From IMG/VR virus record IMGVR_UViG_3300036781_000262, positions 1 to 43,885 of that record: 43,885 nt of DNA, one strand, 5' to 3'. The DNA comes from a virus. How positions within the stretch are numbered: position 1 is the first letter of the stretch; every line of letters begins with the position of its first letter. Positions 4,067-43,885 of this stretch are shown one piece after another. Under the pieces are notes generated by a model. It saw only the letters and a list, made by a program, of their open reading frames with translations, was not told where the DNA came from and searched no databases. The position numbers and the translations under genes are program-made.

Positions 4067-6247
4067 GTGTCCACCTTCTCTGCCAACAACTCCGTTTTGC
4101 CCAAGGCGGATTTACAGATCGCCCCGCAGGACGATAGCGGCCCGGATTTCAGCCAGCTAAAGAGCAACTTCCAGACCTGTGTTACAAACAACAACCCCTA
4201 TGTAACGCAGACGGCGAGTAACTACGCGACACGCTACGCCATTTGGGGCGGTCAGTCAGCGGACGGAAAAAAGCACGCACGCGGCCCCAACGGTCAGATT
4301 GATGCGGTGCCGTGGGATGGGGCGAGCGATCTCAGGGTGTATCTCGTAGATAACCTGATTAACGACAAGGTGGCGATGATGTTGGAGGCGATCAATAAAG
4401 CCTCACTTGTCGCGCAGCCGGTGGAAGGAAACGATATTAAGCGGGCGAAGCAGGTTTCCACTTTTATGAAGTGGATGATTAAAACCCAGATGCCCGATTT
4501 TGAGCGCGAGATGGAGTTGGGCGCTCAGTATCTTCAGGAAAAGGGTGCATTTCTCATGGGGCAGTTCTGGGAGACCTCTCAGGAGAAGATTCTGACGACC
4601 ATCCGACTCTCCGACCTTCAGGCCCAATTTCAGGACATCGACCTTCAACAGCTTTTAGATTCGGGTGACGTTGACGACTACCTGAAATCCATTTTTGAGG
4701 AAATCTACGGGGTGACCCGCGCCAAGGCGGCTAAGATGCTGAGGGAACTTGCCCGTAACGGCATCACCACAGCGGCGATTGTCGGCAAGGAACGCAATTA
4801 CCCGGTAATGCGGGCGCTCAGCTTGGACACTGATGCTTTTATCCCGCCCGACACGACAGACATCGAAGCGGCTACGGAAATCCACCTCGTTAAGTATTAC
4901 TCCCCGGAAAAACTCCGTTCGATGGTGAACACGGATGGGTGGGACAAGAACTGGGTGGAGAACGCGATTGCCACGGCTAAAGGCAAGATGCTGGCGAGCA
5001 CCCCGCAGGAATTCATGCAGCCGATGAGCCGGTCTTTCGTCTACACGCAGCAACGGTTCACTAACAAAATTGGCGTGGTCTGGACCTACCAGCGTTTGAG
5101 CGATGAAGACGGCGTTCCGGGTGTTTACCTGACCGTTTTCAGTCCCGATATTCCCCCGACGCCGGGCGGAGTTGGGGCGGACATGGTGAAATATGGGGCG
5201 CACAAAGGTTACGCGAAGTCCGGACTCTACGGTGACACTGACGGGCGCTACCCATTCATCCTTTACCGCCGCGAGTACCTTTCTCGCAAATTGCACGATT
5301 CCCGTGGTCTGCCTGAGCCCCTGAAACCCCTTCAGGACACGATCAAAGCCCACAAGGATGCACGAATTGATACGGCAAGTTACAATATCATGCCGACGAT
5401 CTTCTACCCGATTGGCCGTCCGCTGCTGAAGTGGGGCGCGGGTGCGCGGGTGCCGGAACGTCGCCCGAATGAGTACCATTATGGCGAACCGATCCCGTTT
5501 GACCAGACGACAGAAGCGAGCCTCGCGACATTGGTTAATGACGCCCGTGATTACGCTGGTTTTGCTCCGAGCGATTCCGATGAACCGATTAACCCGACGA
5601 AAAACCAAGCGGAATTGAATAAGCTGTTCGGGTCTCTCGCTGCGTCCCTTCACCAGATTTGGAATCTGTTTAAGAAATACGGCAACGAGGTTACTTATTA
5701 TCGTGTGGTCGGCATTCAGTCCGAGGAATCAACGCGATTCGAGCGCGGCCCAGAGGACGAGGATTTCTATTTCCAGATGGTCCACGACCTCCGCAGCTCA
5801 GACCCGGAATATCAGGCCAAGAAAATCGACCGCATCCTTCAGCTTGCTCAGGCGGCAGACCGTAACGGGGCGGTTGACTGGACGGAAATGCTTCAGGTCG
5901 GCATGGACTCGGAAGACCCGAGCATTGCGGCGCGTGTTCTTCGTCCAGCTGAGGCTGGCGCTGAGGCCATCATTAACGAGGTGCAAAATGATCTTACGAA
6001 GATTTGGTCGGGCATAGCAGTCAACGTTCGCCCCAATACGCCGCCGGGAATCGCCAAGCAGACGCTTCAGAACTGGGCGCAGTCGCGTGATGTTATCGCC
6101 CGCTATGAGAACGATGAGGCGTTCAAGGAGCGGGTCGATGTTTACGCCCAGCAGGTTCAAATGCTGGAAGACCAGCAGAACAACAAGCAGGTCGGCAGGC
6201 TTGGCGCAGTCCAGCCGACTCCCGTAATCGGGCCGTCTGCGGTTTAA
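4067..6247 (+). CDS. Portal protein
   Basis: A 726-residue protein directly after the terminase, with the size and composition of podovirus-type portal (head-tail connector) proteins. Features include an N-terminal Trp/Asp segment (VPWDGASDLR near residue 85), a long helical middle, a DPxxR-like region near 370, and a helical, Gln-rich C-terminus that could form the barrel. GTG at 4067 is chosen because an in-frame TAA lies at 4061-4063 and no ATG exists earlier. Twelve subunits are expected at one capsid vertex, where the terminase docks. Identification rests on position, length and overall similarity to phage portals; no single catalytic motif exists. Confidence 0.85.
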   Translation: MSTFSANNSVLPKADLQIAPQDDSGPDFSQLKSNFQTCVTNNNPYVTQTASNYATRYAIWGGQSADGKKHARGPNGQIDAVPWDGASDLRVYLVDNLINDKVAMMLEAINKASLVAQPVEGNDIKRAKQVSTFMKWMIKTQMPDFEREMELGAQYLQEKGAFLMGQFWETSQEKILTTIRLSDLQAQFQDIDLQQLLDSGDVDDYLKSIFEEIYGVTRAKAAKMLRELARNGITTAAIVGKERNYPVMRALSLDTDAFIPPDTTDIEAATEIHLVKYYSPEKLRSMVNTDGWDKNWVENAIATAKGKMLASTPQEFMQPMSRSFVYTQQRFTNKIGVVWTYQRLSDEDGVPGVYLTVFSPDIPPTPGGVGADMVKYGAHKGYAKSGLYGDTDGRYPFILYRREYLSRKLHDSRGLPEPLKPLQDTIKAHKDARIDTASYNIMPTIFYPIGRPLLKWGAGARVPERRPNEYHYGEPIPFDQTTEASLATLVNDARDYAGFAPSDSDEPINPTKNQAELNKLFGSLAASLHQIWNLFKKYGNEVTYYRVVGIQSEESTRFERGPEDEDFYFQMVHDLRSSDPEYQAKKIDRILQLAQAADRNGAVDWTEMLQVGMDSEDPSIAARVLRPAEAGAEAIINEVQNDLTKIWSGIAVNVRPNTPPGIAKQTLQNWAQSRDVIARYENDEAFKERVDVYAQQVQMLEDQQNNKQVGRLGAVQPTPVIGPSAV

Positions 6248-6250
6248 TTT

Positions 6251-6550
6251 ATGGCACGTAAATCAGCGGCTCAGGTCGCTCAAGAAAAGTTAAAGTTGGA
6301 CCGTATCCAAGCGGCCATGACTCCGCTGGTTGGAATTCCCGCTTTCGTGGAATTCATGCAGCTAATCAAAGACCTCAAAGACGAGGCGGTGGCGAATTCG
6401 GTTTCTTTTGAAACGTCTGCGAGTGAGCGAAACTCCCTTGTTTCAAAGGGGGAAGTTCTATCTTACCTGAACATCATCCAGACTTACGAGGGCGAACTGG
6501 AACAGCAGGAAGCTCAGATTCGGGCCGCGCAGCAAGAGACTAACGGATAA
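6251..6550 (+). CDS. Small coiled-coil head protein of unknown function
   Basis: A 99-residue protein starting 3 bp after the portal stop. It is strongly helical, with Glu/Gln/Lys-rich segments at residues 5-25 and 65-97 that look like coiled coil. Small helical proteins in this slot may assist head assembly, but no family is recognised. Its last 11 bp overlap the end of the antisense zinc-finger gene. Confidence 0.65.
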   Translation: MARKSAAQVAQEKLKLDRIQAAMTPLVGIPAFVEFMQLIKDLKDEAVANSVSFETSASERNSLVSKGEVLSYLNIIQTYEGELEQQEAQIRAAQQETNG

Positions 6551-6725
6551 CGCCGCACACGCGGGAACGACTGTTGGTGAATCCGTGACCTGAACCACGA
6601 CACGTTGGGCATGTATCCCGCCAAGCGTTACCGTTTCCAAACGGCACTCGCACGGTTCCGGTAGAGCCGCACAAGTGACACGGTTTAAGGATTCGGAGCA
6701 GACGCTTTTTAAGCAATCGGAGCAC
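6540..6725 (-). CDS. Small DnaJ-type zinc-finger protein
   Basis: A 61-residue basic protein, antisense to the virion operon. It carries two CxxCxGxG-like knuckles, CHLCGSTG near residues 16-23 and CPTCRGSG near 39-46, the pattern of the cysteine-rich zinc domain of DnaJ. Such short proteins are common in phages and probably bind zinc; the partner is unknown. The start is GTG at 6723-6725, with an in-frame stop 21 bp upstream and no clear ribosome site, so the exact start is uncertain. It sits next to the antisense HNH gene and may have arrived with it. Confidence 0.55.
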   Translation of the reverse strand: MLRLLKKRLLRILKPCHLCGSTGTVRVPFGNGNAWRDTCPTCRGSGHGFTNSRSRVCGVIR

Positions 6726-6786
6726 GGCGGCATTAACAAAAATCGTTTAATAGACCTCAATCCATCTCTTAACATAGTAGCTGTCC

Positions 6787-7227
6787 TTATTTCAGGATTT
6801 TCCTTCTTTTGTCTTTAAACACAAGTTGGCCGGAATCGAAAAGCCGCGATATTTGGATCATTCGTTTTCGTTTATTTAACATATCCCGTTTGTTGTCTTC
6901 ATCCGTACCGGGGAAAAGGTGATCTGGATTTACGCAAATCGTGTTATCGCATTTGTGGCATATGCAGGGCTTGTCATAAGGAATATCCCCATAGGAAAGC
7001 GTGTAAGATACACGATGGGCTAGCGTCCGCCTGAACACGCCATATCCTTTATTGTTTTTGGCACCGATCCAGTTCCAGCATTCTCCAGATTTATCCACTT
7101 TTTTCCAAAAGGAATTCTCGAACGAGGCCAAGGACCACTTTCCAATGCAATCCTCCAGATTCGGTTGTTCATGGATATCGCTTGCCAGCGATAGAACTTC
7201 GTCAAACAGTTTTGCAGCATCACTCAT
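6787..7227 (-). CDS. HNH homing-type endonuclease
   Basis: A 146-residue protein with a Trp-rich segment (ECWNWIGAKNNKGYG at 49-63) followed by an HNH core. H71 starts the helix, CHKCDN at 90-95 contains the metal and catalytic histidine region, and VNPDHLFPG at 99-107 supplies the final N and H. This layout is typical of free-standing phage HNH endonucleases that spread by cutting alleles lacking them. The gene runs against the virion operon and is clearly AT-richer than the portal and capsid genes, which are signs of an acquired element. The start is the ATG at 7225-7227. Confidence 0.85.
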   Translation of the reverse strand: MSDAAKLFDEVLSLASDIHEQPNLEDCIGKWSLASFENSFWKKVDKSGECWNWIGAKNNKGYGVFRRTLAHRVSYTLSYGDIPYDKPCICHKCDNTICVNPDHLFPGTDEDNKRDMLNKRKRMIQISRLFDSGQLVFKDKRRKILK

Positions 7228-7251
7228 ACTAATATTATGGGTTTATGTTAG

Positions 7252-7287
7252 CGAACCGAAGTCCTGATATGGCTTCGGTTCGTGCTT
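7252..7287 (+). terminator. Perfect 10-bp hairpin followed by a short T tract
   Basis: CGAACCGAAG at 7252-7261 pairs perfectly with CTTCGGTTCG at 7273-7282 across an 11-base loop and is followed by TGCTTTTA on the plus strand. It could end or attenuate rightward transcription before the scaffold and capsid genes, or insulate the antisense HNH gene. The T tract is short, so the terminator reading is moderate. Confidence 0.5.
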
Positions 7288-7347
7288 TTATGGCATCACA
7301 TTCTGTGGTGATCGTAAAGCACTTAACATTAGAATCGTTACTAGTTG

Positions 7348-7366
7348 ACTAATAATTTTTATTAGT
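7348..7366. promoter_or_regulatory. AT-rich 8-bp inverted repeat upstream of the scaffold gene
   Basis: ACTAATAA at 7348-7355 pairs perfectly with TTATTAGT at 7359-7366 around TTT. It lies 60 bp before the scaffold start in the 200-bp gap 7228-7427, which otherwise holds only the 7252 hairpin. It may be an operator, an mRNA leader hairpin or part of a late promoter; the sequence alone does not decide. Confidence 0.35.
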
Positions 7367-7427
7367 GCTTGATTTACGCACTGAGGCATCCCGCTTCTGC
7401 CATTGGCCTTCTTGGGGCCGCAAATCC

Positions 7428-23047: not shown

Positions 23048-23215
23048 TAAGAGTTAGCTGCGTCGCGATACGTTTCCCGCTTCTCAGGGCGGGTGCCAGT
23101 GTCTTTAGTTGGCGATTCTGCTGACGTAGGACGCTTTTACAATCCTAAAGTGACTTGGGTTGTTCTGGGCGGGAAGTACGCTGTAATGCAGCCAGAATGG
23201 CAGGGCGGGGCATCC

Positions 23216-29345: not shown

Positions 29346-29507
29346 TTAGGAGGAGGCTGGCTCTTTGGTGAGGGCGATTAGCTCCACGCGAATTAATACG
29401 GCATACTTAAGAACGTGGTGGGCGTCGTCGGGCCTCTGCTCCATTTCGGTAAGTAGCTCTCGGATTTTCTCGGTGTGCAGGAGGACGGTTGTGGCGGGGA
29501 GTGTCAT
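29346..29507 (-). CDS. 53-residue helical hypothetical protein
   Basis: ATG at 29505-29507 overlaps the upstream TGA (ATGA). The protein is helical (EKIRELLTEMEQRPDD, HHVLKYAVLIRVELIAL) with the look of a small two-helix bundle, and stops at 29346. No family is recognised. Confidence 0.6.
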   Translation of the reverse strand: MTLPATTVLLHTEKIRELLTEMEQRPDDAHHVLKYAVLIRVELIALTKEPASS

Positions 29508-29881
29508 TGGGTGGCGGATTTGTCCAAGTCGTGCTTGGCGCGGATGGCCTCAACGTCGCAGATGATGCTTTCCAACTCGGACAAATCACCAGTCCGACAA
29601 TCGCCAGTAAGGTAACGCGAAACCTTGTCGATGATGGCGACGAAATCCGCGTGGCTGTTGCAGGCGCGAACGATGAAGGCGGCGTTGGCCTTGCATCCTT
29701 CTTTGGTCGATGCGCCGATAATGGTATTGCCGTGAAGGGCCATGCCACAATCGGCGATGATAACACCGGCGGGACTGATAATCATCTGACGTGCTGTTTT
29801 GATACCAAAGGCGGCGTTACTGATACCCGCCACGCTCCACGGCGTCGGCGTGTGTTGAATTGTGATGTCGTAAGTTTTCAT
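29504..29881 (-). CDS. TPGPW-type early protein (copy 2)
   Basis: A 125-residue protein with IQHTPTPWSVAGI near residues 8-20 and a conserved C-terminal block ANAAFIVRACNSHADFV at about 78-94. These are the two blocks of a widespread phage early protein family. It is the same length as copy 3 at 35950-36327 and clearly related. The function of the family is not established. The 75 bp upstream (29882-29956) contain no gene. Confidence 0.65.
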   Translation of the reverse strand: MKTYDITIQHTPTPWSVAGISNAAFGIKTARQMIISPAGVIIADCGMALHGNTIIGASTKEGCKANAAFIVRACNSHADFVAIIDKVSRYLTGDCRTGDLSELESIICDVEAIRAKHDLDKSATQ

Positions 29882-35192: not shown

Positions 35193-35431
35193 TGTACGCG
35201 GAAGTTAGGACGGTCGTAGAACGCGATCAGTTCTTTGCCTTCATCGGAGTCAGGGGCGGGGCACAAGGTCATGCCATCCTGCCCTACGATTGCTTTCTGG
35301 GGGGCGATAGGCTCCACGTCCCACTGCTTAAAGTCGGGCCTCCCCAAGCACCAAATAAGGGCAATGGTTAGGTAGTCGAAGGTGGGTCCGGTTTGGCCAC
35401 GAGGACCATGCGGGCGGTATAGGGCGTTCAT
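35189..35431 (-). CDS. 80-residue hypothetical protein
   Basis: From ATG 35431 (MNALYRPHGPRGQTG), overlapping the stop of the deformylase gene. A hydrophobic segment (FDYLTIALIWCLG) is followed by acidic residues. No family is recognised; a signal or membrane role is unlikely given the length of the hydrophobic run. Confidence 0.55.
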   Translation of the reverse strand: MNALYRPHGPRGQTGPTFDYLTIALIWCLGRPDFKQWDVEPIAPQKAIVGQDGMTLCPAPDSDEGKELIAFYDRPNFRVQ

Positions 35432-35847
35432 GCAAAGAGGCAAACGCCGTTGAGGTGGTCTAGTTCATGCTGAAAGATTCGTGCCTCGAAACCCTTGAAC
35501 GTGCGCTTAACAGGTTTCGTATTTTCGTCCAGGTAGCCCACGGTGATAACGCGATGGCGCACCGTGTTCTTGGAGAGACCTGGGAAGCTCAAGCAACCCT
35601 CCACGCCGTGCTCCTCGTCTTTACCGTGAGAGAGGATTTCCGGGTTGATGCAGACCAGCGTTAATCCGCCATCCCGCATCACAAAGAAACGTTCGGAAAT
35701 CCCCACCTGAGGAGCAGCAAGGCCAACCCCATTTGAAAGTTTCATAAGCAACTTCATATGGTCGGCGATCTCCGCAGCAGATTTGAAGTCCTGCACACGA
35801 ACGGCCTCCTTGCGAAGTACCGGATCGGAACTGTGAACTAGATTCAT
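35428..35847 (-). CDS. def: Peptide deformylase
   Basis: A 139-residue protein with all three catalytic motifs: GVGLAAPQVG at 40-49, EGCLSFPG at 83-90 (metal ligand C85) and QHELDHLNG at 126-134 (H127, catalytic E128, H131). It removes the formyl group from the first methionine of new proteins. It is shorter than the usual bacterial enzyme and lacks the long C-terminal helix, as in several phage deformylases. It lies in the early operon before a TPGPW-type gene. Known phages with deformylase keep host translation or photosystem repair running; the benefit here is unknown. Confidence 0.93.
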   Translation of the reverse strand: MNLVHSSDPVLRKEAVRVQDFKSAAEIADHMKLLMKLSNGVGLAAPQVGISERFFVMRDGGLTLVCINPEILSHGKDEEHGVEGCLSFPGLSKNTVRHRVITVGYLDENTKPVKRTFKGFEARIFQHELDHLNGVCLFA

Positions 35848-35949
35848 GTTATTTTATTTGAAAGTTTCGCCTACGGCTTCCCGGCCCGTTAGTATTTAGC
35901 TGACGTTAGGAAGCTTTCGGCGATGTCCCGCAATCACACGGGCAAAGGG

Positions 35950-36327
35950 TTAGGGGGTGGCGGATTTGAGGGCGGCGCGAGCTTCACGAACAACAGCCAG
36001 CGCCTCTGGATAATGCGTCACTCCAGCATCCTTCATGGCCTTGGCGTAGGCATCGGTCATGGTCTTGAGCTGTGCCACCAGCGCCTCGTGTGAGTTCATG
36101 GCCTGCACCATGAAAGCTGCATTCGCTTCGGCGTCGTCGTGGTTGCAAATGTGGGCGATTGACCATCCGTGAGTGGTTCCGCCAGCATGCAGGAAGTAGC
36201 GATATCCGGTGTTCATGTCCCGATTGAAGCGGGCAAGGACGAACGGCCCCGGCGTGTGCCGCGATTCCACTTGGGACTCGCGAACTGTCTTCAGGTTTTC
36301 CGCGTTAGCGGGGAGAGAAGTATTCAT
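35950..36327 (-). CDS. TPGPW-type early protein (copy 3)
   Basis: A 125-residue protein from ATG 36327. RHTPGPFVLARF at 23-34 and EANAAFMVQAMNSHEALVAQL at about 72-92 (a 21-residue block given here in part: ANAAFMVQAMNSHEALV) match copies at 28000-28341 and 29504-29881. The C-terminus is Ala-rich helix. The gap 35848-35949 downstream holds only a weak CCCG/CGGG hairpin (35927-35942). Confidence 0.65.
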   Translation of the reverse strand: MNTSLPANAENLKTVRESQVESRHTPGPFVLARFNRDMNTGYRYFLHAGGTTHGWSIAHICNHDDAEANAAFMVQAMNSHEALVAQLKTMTDAYAKAMKDAGVTHYPEALAVVREARAALKSATP

Positions 36328-36379
36328 ATGCTTTTTTGAGTTAAGGAGTGGAAGCGTTGTTGCGCCTCCGTTGAAAAGG

Positions 36380-36559
36380 TTAGGCGGAGACCTTGTGCCA
36401 CTTGCGGAAGTCCTCTCCAACGAAGATGCGCTTACCGCGATAAAGGAAGTAGTGAACATCGAATCCGTTATCCTTGCGCTGGCCGCAGTGAATGTTGATC
36501 GGCCTGTCGTCTGATGGGCGAACATAACGCCCGACCTTGTACTTGTAGCGAATTTTCAT
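36380..36559 (-). CDS. 59-residue basic protein, first gene of the early operon
   Basis: From ATG 36559 (MKIRYKYKVGRYVRPS). Very basic and aromatic, with strands typical of a small barrel (VHYFLYRGKRIFVGE). No family is recognised. It is divergent from the 36690 gene, so the promoters of the early operon should lie in 36560-36689. Confidence 0.55.
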   Translation of the reverse strand: MKIRYKYKVGRYVRPSDDRPINIHCGQRKDNGFDVHYFLYRGKRIFVGEDFRKWHKVSA

Positions 36560-36689
36560 GTGATTGTTTTTATCAGCCGGATAATTCCTGCCGATGTGAT
36601 GAGTGGATACTAAGCCAAGCGGCTTGGCAATGCCTATCTTTAGATATTTCTGGGCTTGCTTTGTAATGCCAATCGGCTTCGCTGCCCCC
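36560..36689. promoter_or_regulatory. Divergent early control region
   Basis: This 130-bp gap separates the leftward early operon from the rightward block. GCCAAG (36614-36619) pairs with CTTGGC (36623-36628) around CGG, a perfect 6-bp hairpin or half-site pair, and a related GCCAATCGGCTT follows at 36668-36679. Such a repeated palindrome between divergent genes could be an operator. No -35/-10 pair with correct spacing is convincing. Confidence 0.4.
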
Positions 36690-36854
36690 ATGCCAGAAAC
36701 CGCAGAGGTGCCCCCAGATCAACTTACAGCCGTGATGGCCATGCTGGGGCGTAACGGCGGGAAATCGCGTTCTAAAGCGAAACGTGAGGCCGCAAAGGCC
36801 AACGGGAAGTGCCCGAAGAAGAACTTCGCCCCCAAGAAAGAGAAAGTGGCCTAA
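36690..36854 (+). CDS. 54-residue basic protein
   Basis: From ATG 36690 (MPETAEVPPDQLTAVM). The C-terminal half is Lys/Arg/Gly-rich (RNGGKSRSKAKREAAKANGK) like small DNA-associated helix proteins. An in-frame upstream ATG at 36603 would run through the control hairpin and is not preferred. It is followed by an intrinsic terminator at 36973-37008. Confidence 0.5.
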   Translation: MPETAEVPPDQLTAVMAMLGRNGGKSRSKAKREAAKANGKCPKKNFAPKKEKVA

Positions 36855-36972
36855 TTCGCGCCATCGGGTAATTTCCTGCTTGTGCTATCAGGGGAAAGCT
36901 GATGCCGTTTTCGTGTTGCGAGTGAAGTCGCGGCGAAAGTTCCAATTTTGAGGGGCGCAAATCTCTCTAAGA

Positions 36973-37008
36973 AGACCCGGACCCACAGCTTCACATGTGG
37001 CCGGGTTT
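36973..37008 (+). terminator. Rightward intrinsic terminator
   Basis: AGACCCGG (36973-36980) pairs with CCGGGTTT (37001-37008) with one G-T pair; an inner CCACA/TGTGG extends the stem. TTTTCTGCTTTT follows. It would stop transcription from the 36690 gene before the large RNA region. The preceding 36855-36972 contains no supported gene. Confidence 0.7.
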
Positions 37009-37028
37009 TCTGCTTTTGAGAGTCCCGT

Positions 37029-37958
37029 GTTCTTTTCCAGATAGGGCGCAGACCGCAAGGCGAGCGCAGCGAGGTGGACTGGTGATGTCACTCCTTTGGC
37101 CCGAAAGGGCGCATTCTATGCCGTATGCGTAGACCCTGCACCAAAGAACGACGCAAACCACTATGCATGGCCGGGTGCAACCCCCGGGTCTACCTCGCTG
37201 CTCTTGCCGCAAGGTGAGCGCCGAATTGAGATAGGTAGGCGTTCACGTCCGTTCTTACGCACTGGACTAATTCGTGTCGCCACATCGCTAGCCGAGCCCG
37301 GTAACTGCGTTTCCCGAAGCCAAGCAACGGCGTCCTGTCTCAATTCGGCCCTTGCCGCACGGGAGCGCAGAGTTGAGGCGGCGAATCCTGCTAAGGCTGG
37401 TTCTGAGAAATCAGGAACGCCGCTGCCGAACGTAAGGCGGCAGATGTTCGCCCCCTCAATCCTGCCCTCTCCCCTATCTGGAAGAAAACTAAATCAGGTT
37501 CAGTGTAGTTTCTGTTGTTGGGGCCGCGTGGGTGGCGCTAGCGTTAGGTAATTCCGAAGCGTGAATACGGAGTTCGAGCCTCCGCCCAACAGCAGAACTT
37601 AGACTGAACATGAATCACTGAAGCCGGACTTCCTCGTTCAACGCATAGAAGAATGGGGCGTGTAAGCGGCGTTCCCTGATATTGGCGAGCGATCTACCGC
37701 TGAAGGTTCGGGGTGAGGGCTTCCGTTCTCATCTATCGGTGTAATTATCGCCACCGAGAAACTACCCGTTGAATCGCGCCGACTGTCCATTGTTTAGGCG
37801 CGTGGAGGGGCTTGCAACCACAGGCTACGAGAAACAGCCAAGGGCATTAGTCAGTAACGAGGCCCGAGGTGGGGAATGATGGACTACCGTGCGTCACGGG
37901 TGATGACGCCTCCTTTTGCAGGTGATAGCGAAGCAGGCCCTCATTTGCAGGGCTTGCT
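37029..37958 (+). ncRNA. Large, highly structured noncoding RNA (GOLLD/ROOL-like in kind)
   Basis: About 930 bp with no credible gene, between a terminator and RNase HI. Visible pairings: an 18-bp closing helix (37029-37046 with 37472-37489, one mismatch, one wobble); GCCGAATTGAGATAGG at 37220-37235 with 37334-37349 (16 bp, one wobble); 37066-37075 with 37192-37201 (10 bp); 37129-37136 with 37186-37193 (8 bp); 37373-37385 with 37447-37459 (two 6-bp helices around one mismatch); GNRA hairpins at 37099-37110 and 37403-37414; hairpins 37775-37802, 37891-37909 and 37932-37958. A tRNA-like domain sits at 37498-37609. The strand is inferred from neighbouring genes and GNRA loops. The family was not identified. 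Confidence 0.7.
37498..37609 (+). other. tRNA-like domain on a 25-bp stem
   Basis: A tRNA-sized core (37516-37592) has a perfect 7-bp acceptor-like helix TGTTGGG/CCCAACA (37516-37522 with 37585-37591) and a canonical T-arm CGGAG-TTCGAGC-CTCCG (37568-37584) directly abutting it, plus a GG-containing D-loop-like segment closed by GCG/CGC (37526-37538). No clean 5-bp anticodon stem is found. The acceptor helix continues outward to 25 bp (37498-37522 with 37585-37609, two mismatches, two wobbles), so the element is embedded in the large RNA and is probably not a free tRNA. Confidence 0.6.
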
Positions 37959-37999
37959 ATTGGCCTCGAACAGCCGTTTGCAGACAACTTCCGTTAGAC

Positions 38000-38512
38000 A
38001 TGAAACAATCCGAAATACCCTTCAACTCATCGCTCCCGTTGGTCACTCTGACGACGGATGGAGGATGTAATCCGAATCCGGGGAAGGGAGCATGGGCATA
38101 CGTGATCCGGTTCGGCACGGCATACAGAGAGCAGGTAGGATGTACTCCTCTTACGACAAACAACCGAATGGAATTGAAGGCCGTTATTGAGGGACTGAAG
38201 GCGCTGAAGAAACCTTGTCGTGTTTTGGTTCGCACGGACAGCTTGGTGATCTCCGCATGGATTCAGAACAAGATCGGCAAGAAGACGGCTCGCGACTGTC
38301 CGGACATTCCTGAAATGGTGGGTGAGGCTCGCGCTCTCTGCAAGATTCACACGGTTACGTTTCAATGGGTGCGCGGCCACAGTGGCGACCCGGATAACGA
38401 ACGATGCGACCAACTTTGCACAGAGGCCATCGGTCCTGTTTCTGCGGTTTGCATGACGCGAACGGGAGAAAAACCTAATCGCGCTTCTGAACGCCCGCCG
38501 CACCTCGCCTGA
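38000..38512 (+). CDS. rnhA: Ribonuclease HI
   Basis: A 170-residue enzyme that cuts RNA in RNA-DNA hybrids. Active-site residues are in place: D20 in TTDGGCNPNPG, E58 in NNRMELKAVIEGL, D80 in VRTDS and D137 in PDNERCD, with a flexible-loop H127 in RGHSGD. ATG 38000 (MKQSEIPFNSS) is chosen because the upstream extension runs through the structured RNA. The length is normal, with a 25-residue basic tail. It may remove primers or R-loops during replication, and it lies directly after the large RNA, which makes a functional link tempting but unproven. Confidence 0.93.
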   Translation: MKQSEIPFNSSLPLVTLTTDGGCNPNPGKGAWAYVIRFGTAYREQVGCTPLTTNNRMELKAVIEGLKALKKPCRVLVRTDSLVISAWIQNKIGKKTARDCPDIPEMVGEARALCKIHTVTFQWVRGHSGDPDNERCDQLCTEAIGPVSAVCMTRTGEKPNRASERPPHLA

Positions 38513-38592
38513 TTCGCCCCACCAACAACCCAGTAGCCCCGCTAATCAGTCTTGCCATCCCCATATTAGTTATCCTAAGCATAGCGTGTAGC

Positions 38593-39009
38593 ATGGGCCA
38601 ACGATTACATCTCTACGCATCCAAGAAACTCACGGTGCCTGAATTGTCAGCATGGATAGATTGCCGCGTTAAGGAATTATTTGAGGTACCTTTACCGGGC
38701 TTCGAGGAAGACTCTTATCGAAAGACCGAGGCCATGATGACGGCGCTAGATCGCCACCCTGCCAGCGAGCATCAGTTTGAGTGTGGGTCAACGTGGTCCA
38801 TTCAGGCATATCCTGACCTCGGTTGGACTGCGTGGGTTTGTACACCCGATAAGATCGAAGCAATCAAAGCCATGGCCCGCGAAGAAATGGCTACTCACAA
38901 GGGATTAAAATCCGCCCACCCCAATACCGATTGGACCATTGGCCCGCTATTCGACTGGCTGAACGCCCATATCGGATGGAATATCCTCGTGAACCACGAA
39001 GGAATCTAA
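38593..39009 (+). CDS. 138-residue hypothetical protein
   Basis: Begins MGQRLHLYASKKLTV and contains aromatic segments (CGSTWSIQAYPDLGWTAWVC near 64-83) and an IGPLFDWLNAHIGW block near the end. No signal or membrane helix. The pattern looks like a compact alpha/beta domain; no family is recognised. The 80-bp gap before it holds no gene. Confidence 0.6.
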   Translation: MGQRLHLYASKKLTVPELSAWIDCRVKELFEVPLPGFEEDSYRKTEAMMTALDRHPASEHQFECGSTWSIQAYPDLGWTAWVCTPDKIEAIKAMAREEMATHKGLKSAHPNTDWTIGPLFDWLNAHIGWNILVNHEGI

Positions 39010-39396: not shown

Positions 39397-39644
39397 ATAG
39401 ACGCTCCTTCTTCGGTATGGTTATCGGGCTTCCCTTGGCGGTTAAGGCATTGCTTAAACCAACCGCCCAATCCGGTAATGTTTTGGAAACGGGAACCATC
39501 ATTGAGTCCAGAAACGAGATTCATTCTGATGGCACCTATTCCCAGACGCTAGTTGGCTTCCGTGACAACGTTCTCACCACCCGCAAGTTTAGATGGGTTG
39601 AGGGTAGGCGTTACCTAATCTCCGAACACGCGCAAAAGACATGA
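39393..39644 (+). CDS. Small protein with a twin-arginine-like N-terminus
   Basis: An 83-residue protein starting MNRRSFFGMVIGLPLAVKA: two arginines, then Ser-Phe-Phe, then a moderately hydrophobic stretch, close to the Tat signal consensus. After it come about 60 polar residues with strands (SDGTYSQTLVGFRDN, RKFRWVEGRRYL). No AxA cut site is obvious, so it could be a Tat substrate, a membrane-anchored protein or coincidence. Coupled by 4-bp overlaps on both sides. Confidence 0.55.
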   Translation: MNRRSFFGMVIGLPLAVKALLKPTAQSGNVLETGTIIESRNEIHSDGTYSQTLVGFRDNVLTTRKFRWVEGRRYLISEHAQKT

Positions 39645-43751: not shown

Positions 43752-43885
43752 AAGGCTGACGAAAATATCGGCCCGGGATTTGATCCAGATGGCAGAAAGC
43801 ATGGAGGTTGACGGCCAAGATTGGTGCATCCGAATGGATGCTTGGCTAGATCTTAGGGGGCCAAATGTTGGGCAGTGGGAAGCCG
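43735..43885 (+). CDS. Hypothetical protein, N-terminal part of the gene crossing the contig join
   Basis: ATG 43735 opens the frame that continues through the duplicated 127 bp and into 1-168, giving a 63-residue product. See the entry at 1-168 for its properties. Confidence 0.6.
   Translation, partial: MNLIIERLTKISARDLIQMAESMEVDGQDWCIRMDAWLDLRGPNVGQWEA
43759..43885. repeat. Contig-terminal direct repeat, right copy
   Basis: Second copy of the 127-bp terminal overlap, identical to bases 1-127. When it is collapsed the genome is a circle of 43,758 bp and the gene starting at 43735 continues without interruption into 1-168. Confidence 0.9.

Follow-up and report, generated by a model that had tools for sequence, protein, structure and literature searches.

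To our knowledge, only a few giant phage RNAs have been described, and a function is settled for none of them. The closest described systems are GOLLD and ROOL, both large phage RNAs without known function that assemble into RNA-only cages (PMC12286853). GOLLD is reported to be phage-borne, to go up during lysis and to be ribosome-bound in pull-downs; its conserved half is the 3' part, and a tRNA sometimes occurs in the linker that joins the 5' domain to the 3' domain (PMC12286853). A mycobacterial GOLLD gene is reported to carry an internal pseudo-tRNA from which no tRNA could be detected (PMC6582537). ROOL, represented by a 659-nt example, is often located near tRNA islands (PMC12286853).

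The locus considered here is found in IMG/VR virus record IMGVR_UViG_3300036781_000262, the whole of which (43,885 bases) constitutes the window. The first and last 127 bases of the record (1-127 and 43759-43885) are identical and form a direct repeat; the record therefore probably represents a complete genome whose ends are joined, either circular or circularly permuted. The genes for terminase, portal and capsid have many environmental relatives, and among named phages only remote ones (at most 28% identity). One 7-kb relative is located within an alphaproteobacterial metagenome bin, which gives a weak hint of the host. On one side the locus is flanked by a leftward gene block, reaching to approximately 36.7 kb, together with a rightward gene of 54 amino acids, and on the other side by a rightward gene for RNase HI (Table 1). 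A strong intrinsic terminator, absent from the original prediction, lies directly upstream of the RNA and thereby sets the preceding gene apart from it. No sigma-70-like promoter was seen in 36300-38700.

We note several further features of this genome. A 23-nt motif (AGTGTCATTGGGTGGCGGATTTG-like) occurs in three copies, approximately 6.4 kb apart, within the leftward block (23098-23120, 29500-29522 and 35946-35968), possibly as a regulatory or promoter element. The divergent start of both gene blocks (36600-36690) contains the repeated letters CCAATCGGCTT / CCAAGCGGCTTGGCAATGCC, and similar peptide letters (IGIAK) are found near 5600-5687 in the nearest syntenic genome (L111, terminase identity 68%), which suggests conserved DNA at divergent promoters. 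The phage encodes a peptide deformylase (35428-35847, minus strand, Pfam E 5.9e-41). The region 3' of the portal gene is noncoding at 6550-6800 and 7201-7400; a 200-nt window at 7201 has a fold z of about -5 on both strands, resulting at least partly from a terminator-like hairpin near 7254-7290.

Table 1. Features of the RNA locus and its flanks (window coordinates).
Feature	Position	Strand	Remarks
54-aa gene	36690-36854	+	coding score 0.31; stops before the terminator; by eye resembles a small ORF of L111 (5348-5584, -) at the same position
Intrinsic terminator GAAGACCCGG...CCGGGUUUUCUGCUUUU	36974-37018	+	directly 5' of P1; 36965-37028 has z -3.8 and -26.2 kcal/mol; U tract by sequence reading
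Structured RNA, whole supported extent (585 nt)	37029-37613	+	fold z; five nested helices tiling the stretch
P1, closing stem	37029-37046/37472-37489	+	17/18 positions paired, including one G-U, the exception being a C-A mismatch; mean pair probability 0.92
Linker 1	37047-37058	+	ends in GCAA; sequence, MFE fold, repeat D1
Arm A	37059-37208	+	basal helix GGCGAG-C-GCAGCGAGGU...ACCUCGCUGC-U-CUUGCC; interior hairpins including GCCC-GAAA-GGGC
Helix A	37059-37080/37187-37208	+	score 46.5, third-rank shuffle maximum 31.5; mean pair probability 0.96
Linker 2 (GCAA)	37209-37212	+	sequence, MFE fold
Arm B	37213-37356	+	basal helix GGUGAG-C-GCCGAAUUGAGA...UCUCAAUUCGGC-C-CUUGCC
Helix B	37213-37243/37326-37356	+	top helix, score 47.5, shuffle maximum 40.5
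Linker 3 (GCAC)	37357-37360	+	sequence, MFE fold
Arm C	37361-37471	+	basal helix GGGAG-C-GCAG...CUGC-C-CUCUC; apical end with two hairpins, one of them capped by GAAA
Helix C	37361-37386/37446-37471	+	score 42.5, fourth-rank shuffle maximum 29.5; mean pair probability 0.98
tRNA-like domain on extended acceptor helix	37494-37613	+	37500-37615 has z -5.7, no shuffle as good
Helix T	37494-37522/37585-37613	+	among the five nested helices above shuffles
Noncoding stretch, RNA to RNase HI	37614-37999	+	folds no better than chance; a weak hairpin resembling a terminator at 37891-37909
RNase HI gene	38000-38512	+	ATG at 38000; Pfam RNase_H E 4.8e-29; PHROG 531 E 3e-34

The original prediction described a giant RNA of approximately 930 nt (37029-37958). 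Its structured part is supported, but spans about 585 nt and ends near 37613. The stretch 37029-37613 has a fold z of -8.9 on the + strand and -6.4 on the - strand (150 dinucleotide shuffles), and its minimum free energy on the + strand, -274.3 kcal/mol, compares with -228.6 kcal/mol for the best shuffle, all 150 shuffles being at least 45 kcal/mol weaker. The locus is the minimum of the genome: all other sampled, non-overlapping windows of 585 nt have z values of -3.7 or higher, and among 98 windows of equal size taken genome-wide on both strands z falls below -4 in only one, which overlaps the RNA. In the remainder, 37614-37958, structure is at chance level: the 3' third (37621-37970, z -0.5) folds like its own shuffles, and the several 6- to 10-bp hairpins that had been proposed there score at shuffle level.

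The individual helices lead to the same boundaries. All ungapped helices in 37020-37970 were scored and compared, rank for rank, with those of 30 dinucleotide shuffles. At the top five ranks the scores (47.5, 47, 46.5, 42.5 and 35.5) lie above the highest shuffle values (40.5, 34, 31.5, 29.5 and 29). The helices concerned are P1, A, B, C and T, given here in order of position and not of score; each is nested with the others, and together they cover 37029-37613 end to end, with linkers of 12, 4, 4, 0 and 4 nt between them. In the sixth helix (score 30, barely exceeding its rank maximum of 28), arm C pairs over 11 bp with 37665-37675, in competition with its own fold; all helices of lower rank are at shuffle level. 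The three long helices named in the original prediction are confirmed at its coordinates. Its 18-bp closing stem has the coordinates of P1, and its 16-bp helix (37220-37235/37334-37349, including one G-U pair) and 10-bp helix (37066-37075/37192-37201) constitute the cores of the longer helices B and A, respectively.

With regard to the strand, the five helices comprise 102 Watson-Crick pairs, 12 G-U pairs and 2 A-C mismatches. A palindrome acting as DNA would give both kinds of mispair equally. We note that the helix scoring itself prefers G-U over A-C, so that the excess of G-U supports a + strand RNA without proving it. The + strand also folds 20 kcal/mol better than the - strand, and the letters of the T loop (UUCGAGC, see below) exist only on the + strand.

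In the predicted anatomy, P1 closes a four-way junction of three arms (A, B and C), and a tRNA-like cloverleaf follows 4 nt later. The letters of the junction are repeated threefold, a feature absent from the original prediction: GCAA or GCAC precedes each arm, the arm starts with GG(N)GAG-C-GC, and its strand returns to CUUGCC or CUCUC with an unpaired pyrimidine facing the C of GG(N)GAG-C. The recurring letters therefore indicate one junction design that is common to three arms with different interiors. This also bears on the two GNRA hairpins proposed previously: the letters CC-GCAA-GG are present, but as hairpins they compete with the longer arm stems, and the MFE fold places GCAA and GCAC at the arm junctions.

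The tRNA-like domain was likewise absent from the original prediction. It consists of a T arm of 5 bp (CGGAG-UUCGAGC-CUCCG), joined without a gap to the 3' strand of the acceptor (CCCAACA), a D-like arm (GCCGC-GUGG-GUGGC), an anticodon-like arm with a 5-nt loop in an irregular stem, and a variable loop of 5 nt. The acceptor helix is unbroken to 13 bp and then continues with small internal loops. A canonical tRNA (Rfam RF00005) shares the T arm with UUCGAGC loop on a 7-bp acceptor, the four-way junction and the 5-nt variable loop, whereas the phage domain differs in an acceptor extending far beyond 7 bp, in the lack of CCA, and in an anticodon-like loop of 5 instead of 7 nt on an irregular stem. 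The domain escapes both ARAGORN and the Rfam tRNA model, and ARAGORN finds no tRNA gene in the entire 43.9-kb genome. When a descriptor combining the T arm with at least 11 of 13 acceptor pairs is run on all fetched DNA (4.0 Mb, counting both strands), this site is the only match, and 2.0 Mb of shuffled DNA give none. As the descriptor was designed with the site already in view, this uniqueness measures rarity and is not a formal probability.

The region contains no credible gene, as had been stated. The longest frame within the RNA (37096-37551) scores -0.07 bits per codon, compared to 0.01 to 0.42 for the genes of the phage, and has no PHROG match. A conserved frame through the region had been named as one observation that would speak against an RNA; the frame has no coding signal, and used as a probe it found no relative in the viral (IMG/VR) and bacterial (GTDB) collections. 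Fold energy, nested tiling helices, the excess of G-U pairs, the absence of coding and the tRNA-like cloverleaf together argue for a structured noncoding RNA on the + strand. On the basis of these folds we consider it very likely that 37029-37613, known from one sequence, encodes a real structured RNA of this strand, and the element is very probably an orphan large structured phage RNA, similar in kind to GOLLD and ROOL.

The collection of families in Rfam includes group I and group II introns, RNase P RNA and tmRNA. The Rfam scan proposed earlier was run, and no family matches the RNA, either at the gathering thresholds or at E<=10. Neither the window nor 36850-38050 yields a match at E<=10 to the GOLLD model (RF02032, 416 positions), which was run without a positive control; the ROOL model (RF03087) gives none at E<=10, and as the control genomes gave none either, its sensitivity is not gauged by this search. 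The group II intron model RF01998 also has no match. Of the suggestion that the element is either a divergent GOLLD or ROOL or a new class, membership in the two families is thus not supported, whereas the order of a 5' domain followed by a pseudo-tRNA is found as in GOLLD. The likeness to GOLLD consists of a large ornate phage RNA whose 5' domain is followed by a tRNA or pseudo-tRNA in the linker (PMC6582537, PMC12286853), a trait of some GOLLD members that is present here at 37494-37613. The differences are the lack of a structured 3' domain after the tRNA-like part and the lack of tRNA genes in this phage genome. With ROOL the element shares a phage origin, many arms and a similar length, but not the frequent vicinity of tRNA islands, and a fused pseudo-tRNA is not described for ROOL in the passages of PMC12286853 considered here.

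Searches by blastn of phage (50,697) and plasmid (72,556) records found no homologue of the RNA, nor did sequence patterns and probes in IMG/VR or a probe in GTDB genomes, and the 23-mer of the T arm has no match in IMG/VR. Terminase relatives were collected at 80 loci; a model of the tRNA-like domain has no match in 50 viral records, nor in 385 genomes belonging to the same class as the MAG in which a terminase relative is located. A glued model of the three-arm core (R2) did not recover its own locus as one match, the arms being long, and was left unused. The paired junction motif has 76 matches in IMG/VR, which lack nhmmer support, are mostly located in open frames and are attributed to chance, as are the 9 matches of the single junction motif. 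Relatives of the RNase HI (39-41% identity) have coding DNA and no RNA upstream, a match of 15 bases in one of them (L002) being due to chance, and the downstream protein of 138 amino acids has no relatives. In L111 the small gene is followed by the homologue of the gene at 39641, with only about 260 bases between them. Neither L111 nor L125, the two relatives readable at the locus, has the RNA or the RNase HI there, so that the block of both either is accessory to this genome or has been lost in these two. Records closely resembling the window may be missing from the collections, and the absence of homologues is thus no proof of uniqueness.

Structured gaps in L126, L072 and L122 have no three-arm or tRNA-like anatomy by sequence and MFE. 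One stretch in a phage contig not closely related to the window (L126:3453-4250, minus strand) is noncoding and strongly structured (z -5.6 to -6.5), has no Rfam match and a TTGCAC-N-TATAAT-like promoter by eye, and possibly contains one or more undescribed phage RNAs.

Several other explanations have to be weighed. One possibility is that the RNA forms a long leader that acts in cis on the RNase HI transcript. Its fold, together with the flanking terminators, would then govern the read-through of the + strand operon or its stability, antitermination being one example. Such a role is consistent with its placement, directly 5' of RNase HI in the same orientation and flanked by the strong terminator and the weak hairpin, and with the lack of a separate recognised promoter. 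Nevertheless, we regard a leader as unlikely: 585 nt of nested structure plus a cloverleaf go far beyond the general requirements of known phage antitermination RNAs, and 386 nt without structure above chance lie between the RNA and RNase HI. The neighbouring gene also invites comparison with a replication-priming or R-loop RNA that is processed by RNase HI. ColE1 RNA II, a structured RNA of about 550 nt that is cut by RNase H, is comparable, and both readable relatives lack the RNA together with RNase HI. Against this, GC content is 0.52-0.62 across 37000-38000 without any AT-rich stretch, a repeat search found no iterons, and RNase HI is common in phages (764 records), so that its vicinity is weak evidence; a priming RNA is scarcely probable.

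A GOLLD too divergent for the Rfam model, composed of a 5' domain, a pseudo-tRNA in the linker and a 3' domain, would account for the similar size, and the order of domains fits the published descriptions (PMC6582537, PMC12286853). It is improbable, given that the 416-position model finds nothing at E<=10 over the window and that structure here is at chance level in the 3' part, which PMC12286853 describes as GOLLD's conserved half. The large junction-rich fold, GNRA loops and tRNA-like domain could belong to an undescribed or decayed type of ribozyme, intron-like or tmRNA-like element, a reading made quite improbable by the lack of any Rfam family at E<=10 and of a flanking endonuclease or split gene. 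Finally, inverted repeats acting as DNA (a cruciform, a packaging or a recombination site), or structure arising by chance, would be compatible with the good fold of the - strand (z -6.4). The ratio of G-U to A-C, the better + strand fold, the restriction of the T loop to the + strand, and shuffles that are all far weaker make these highly improbable.

In our preferred reading, 37029-37613 would specify a noncoding phage RNA on the + strand, stable and about 585 nt long. We infer its transcription, and propose that it would be made during infection as a large RNA scaffold, like GOLLD and ROOL, with the folded RNA itself as the product. The three like junctions would build a compact, possibly self-associating core; self-association and a scaffold role are suggested by analogy only, and a scaffold-type function is a tentative proposal, to which we give somewhat less than an even chance. 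The tRNA-like end may serve as a handle for host factors that bind or process tRNAs (RNase P or the ribosome), or in the formation of the 3' end. The chances are about even that the element represents a new class of large ornate phage RNA. Without sequence relation to GOLLD, ROOL or OLE, it would combine three arms built on one repeated junction with a pseudo-tRNA carried by a long helix, and would hence be a further independent invention with a built-in tRNA mimic. If an independent RNA keeps a large junction core together with an embedded pseudo-tRNA, this would suggest that both features go together for a reason. The question of giant RNA function would then narrow to what binds or cuts the tRNA-like end, and whether the core self-assembles.
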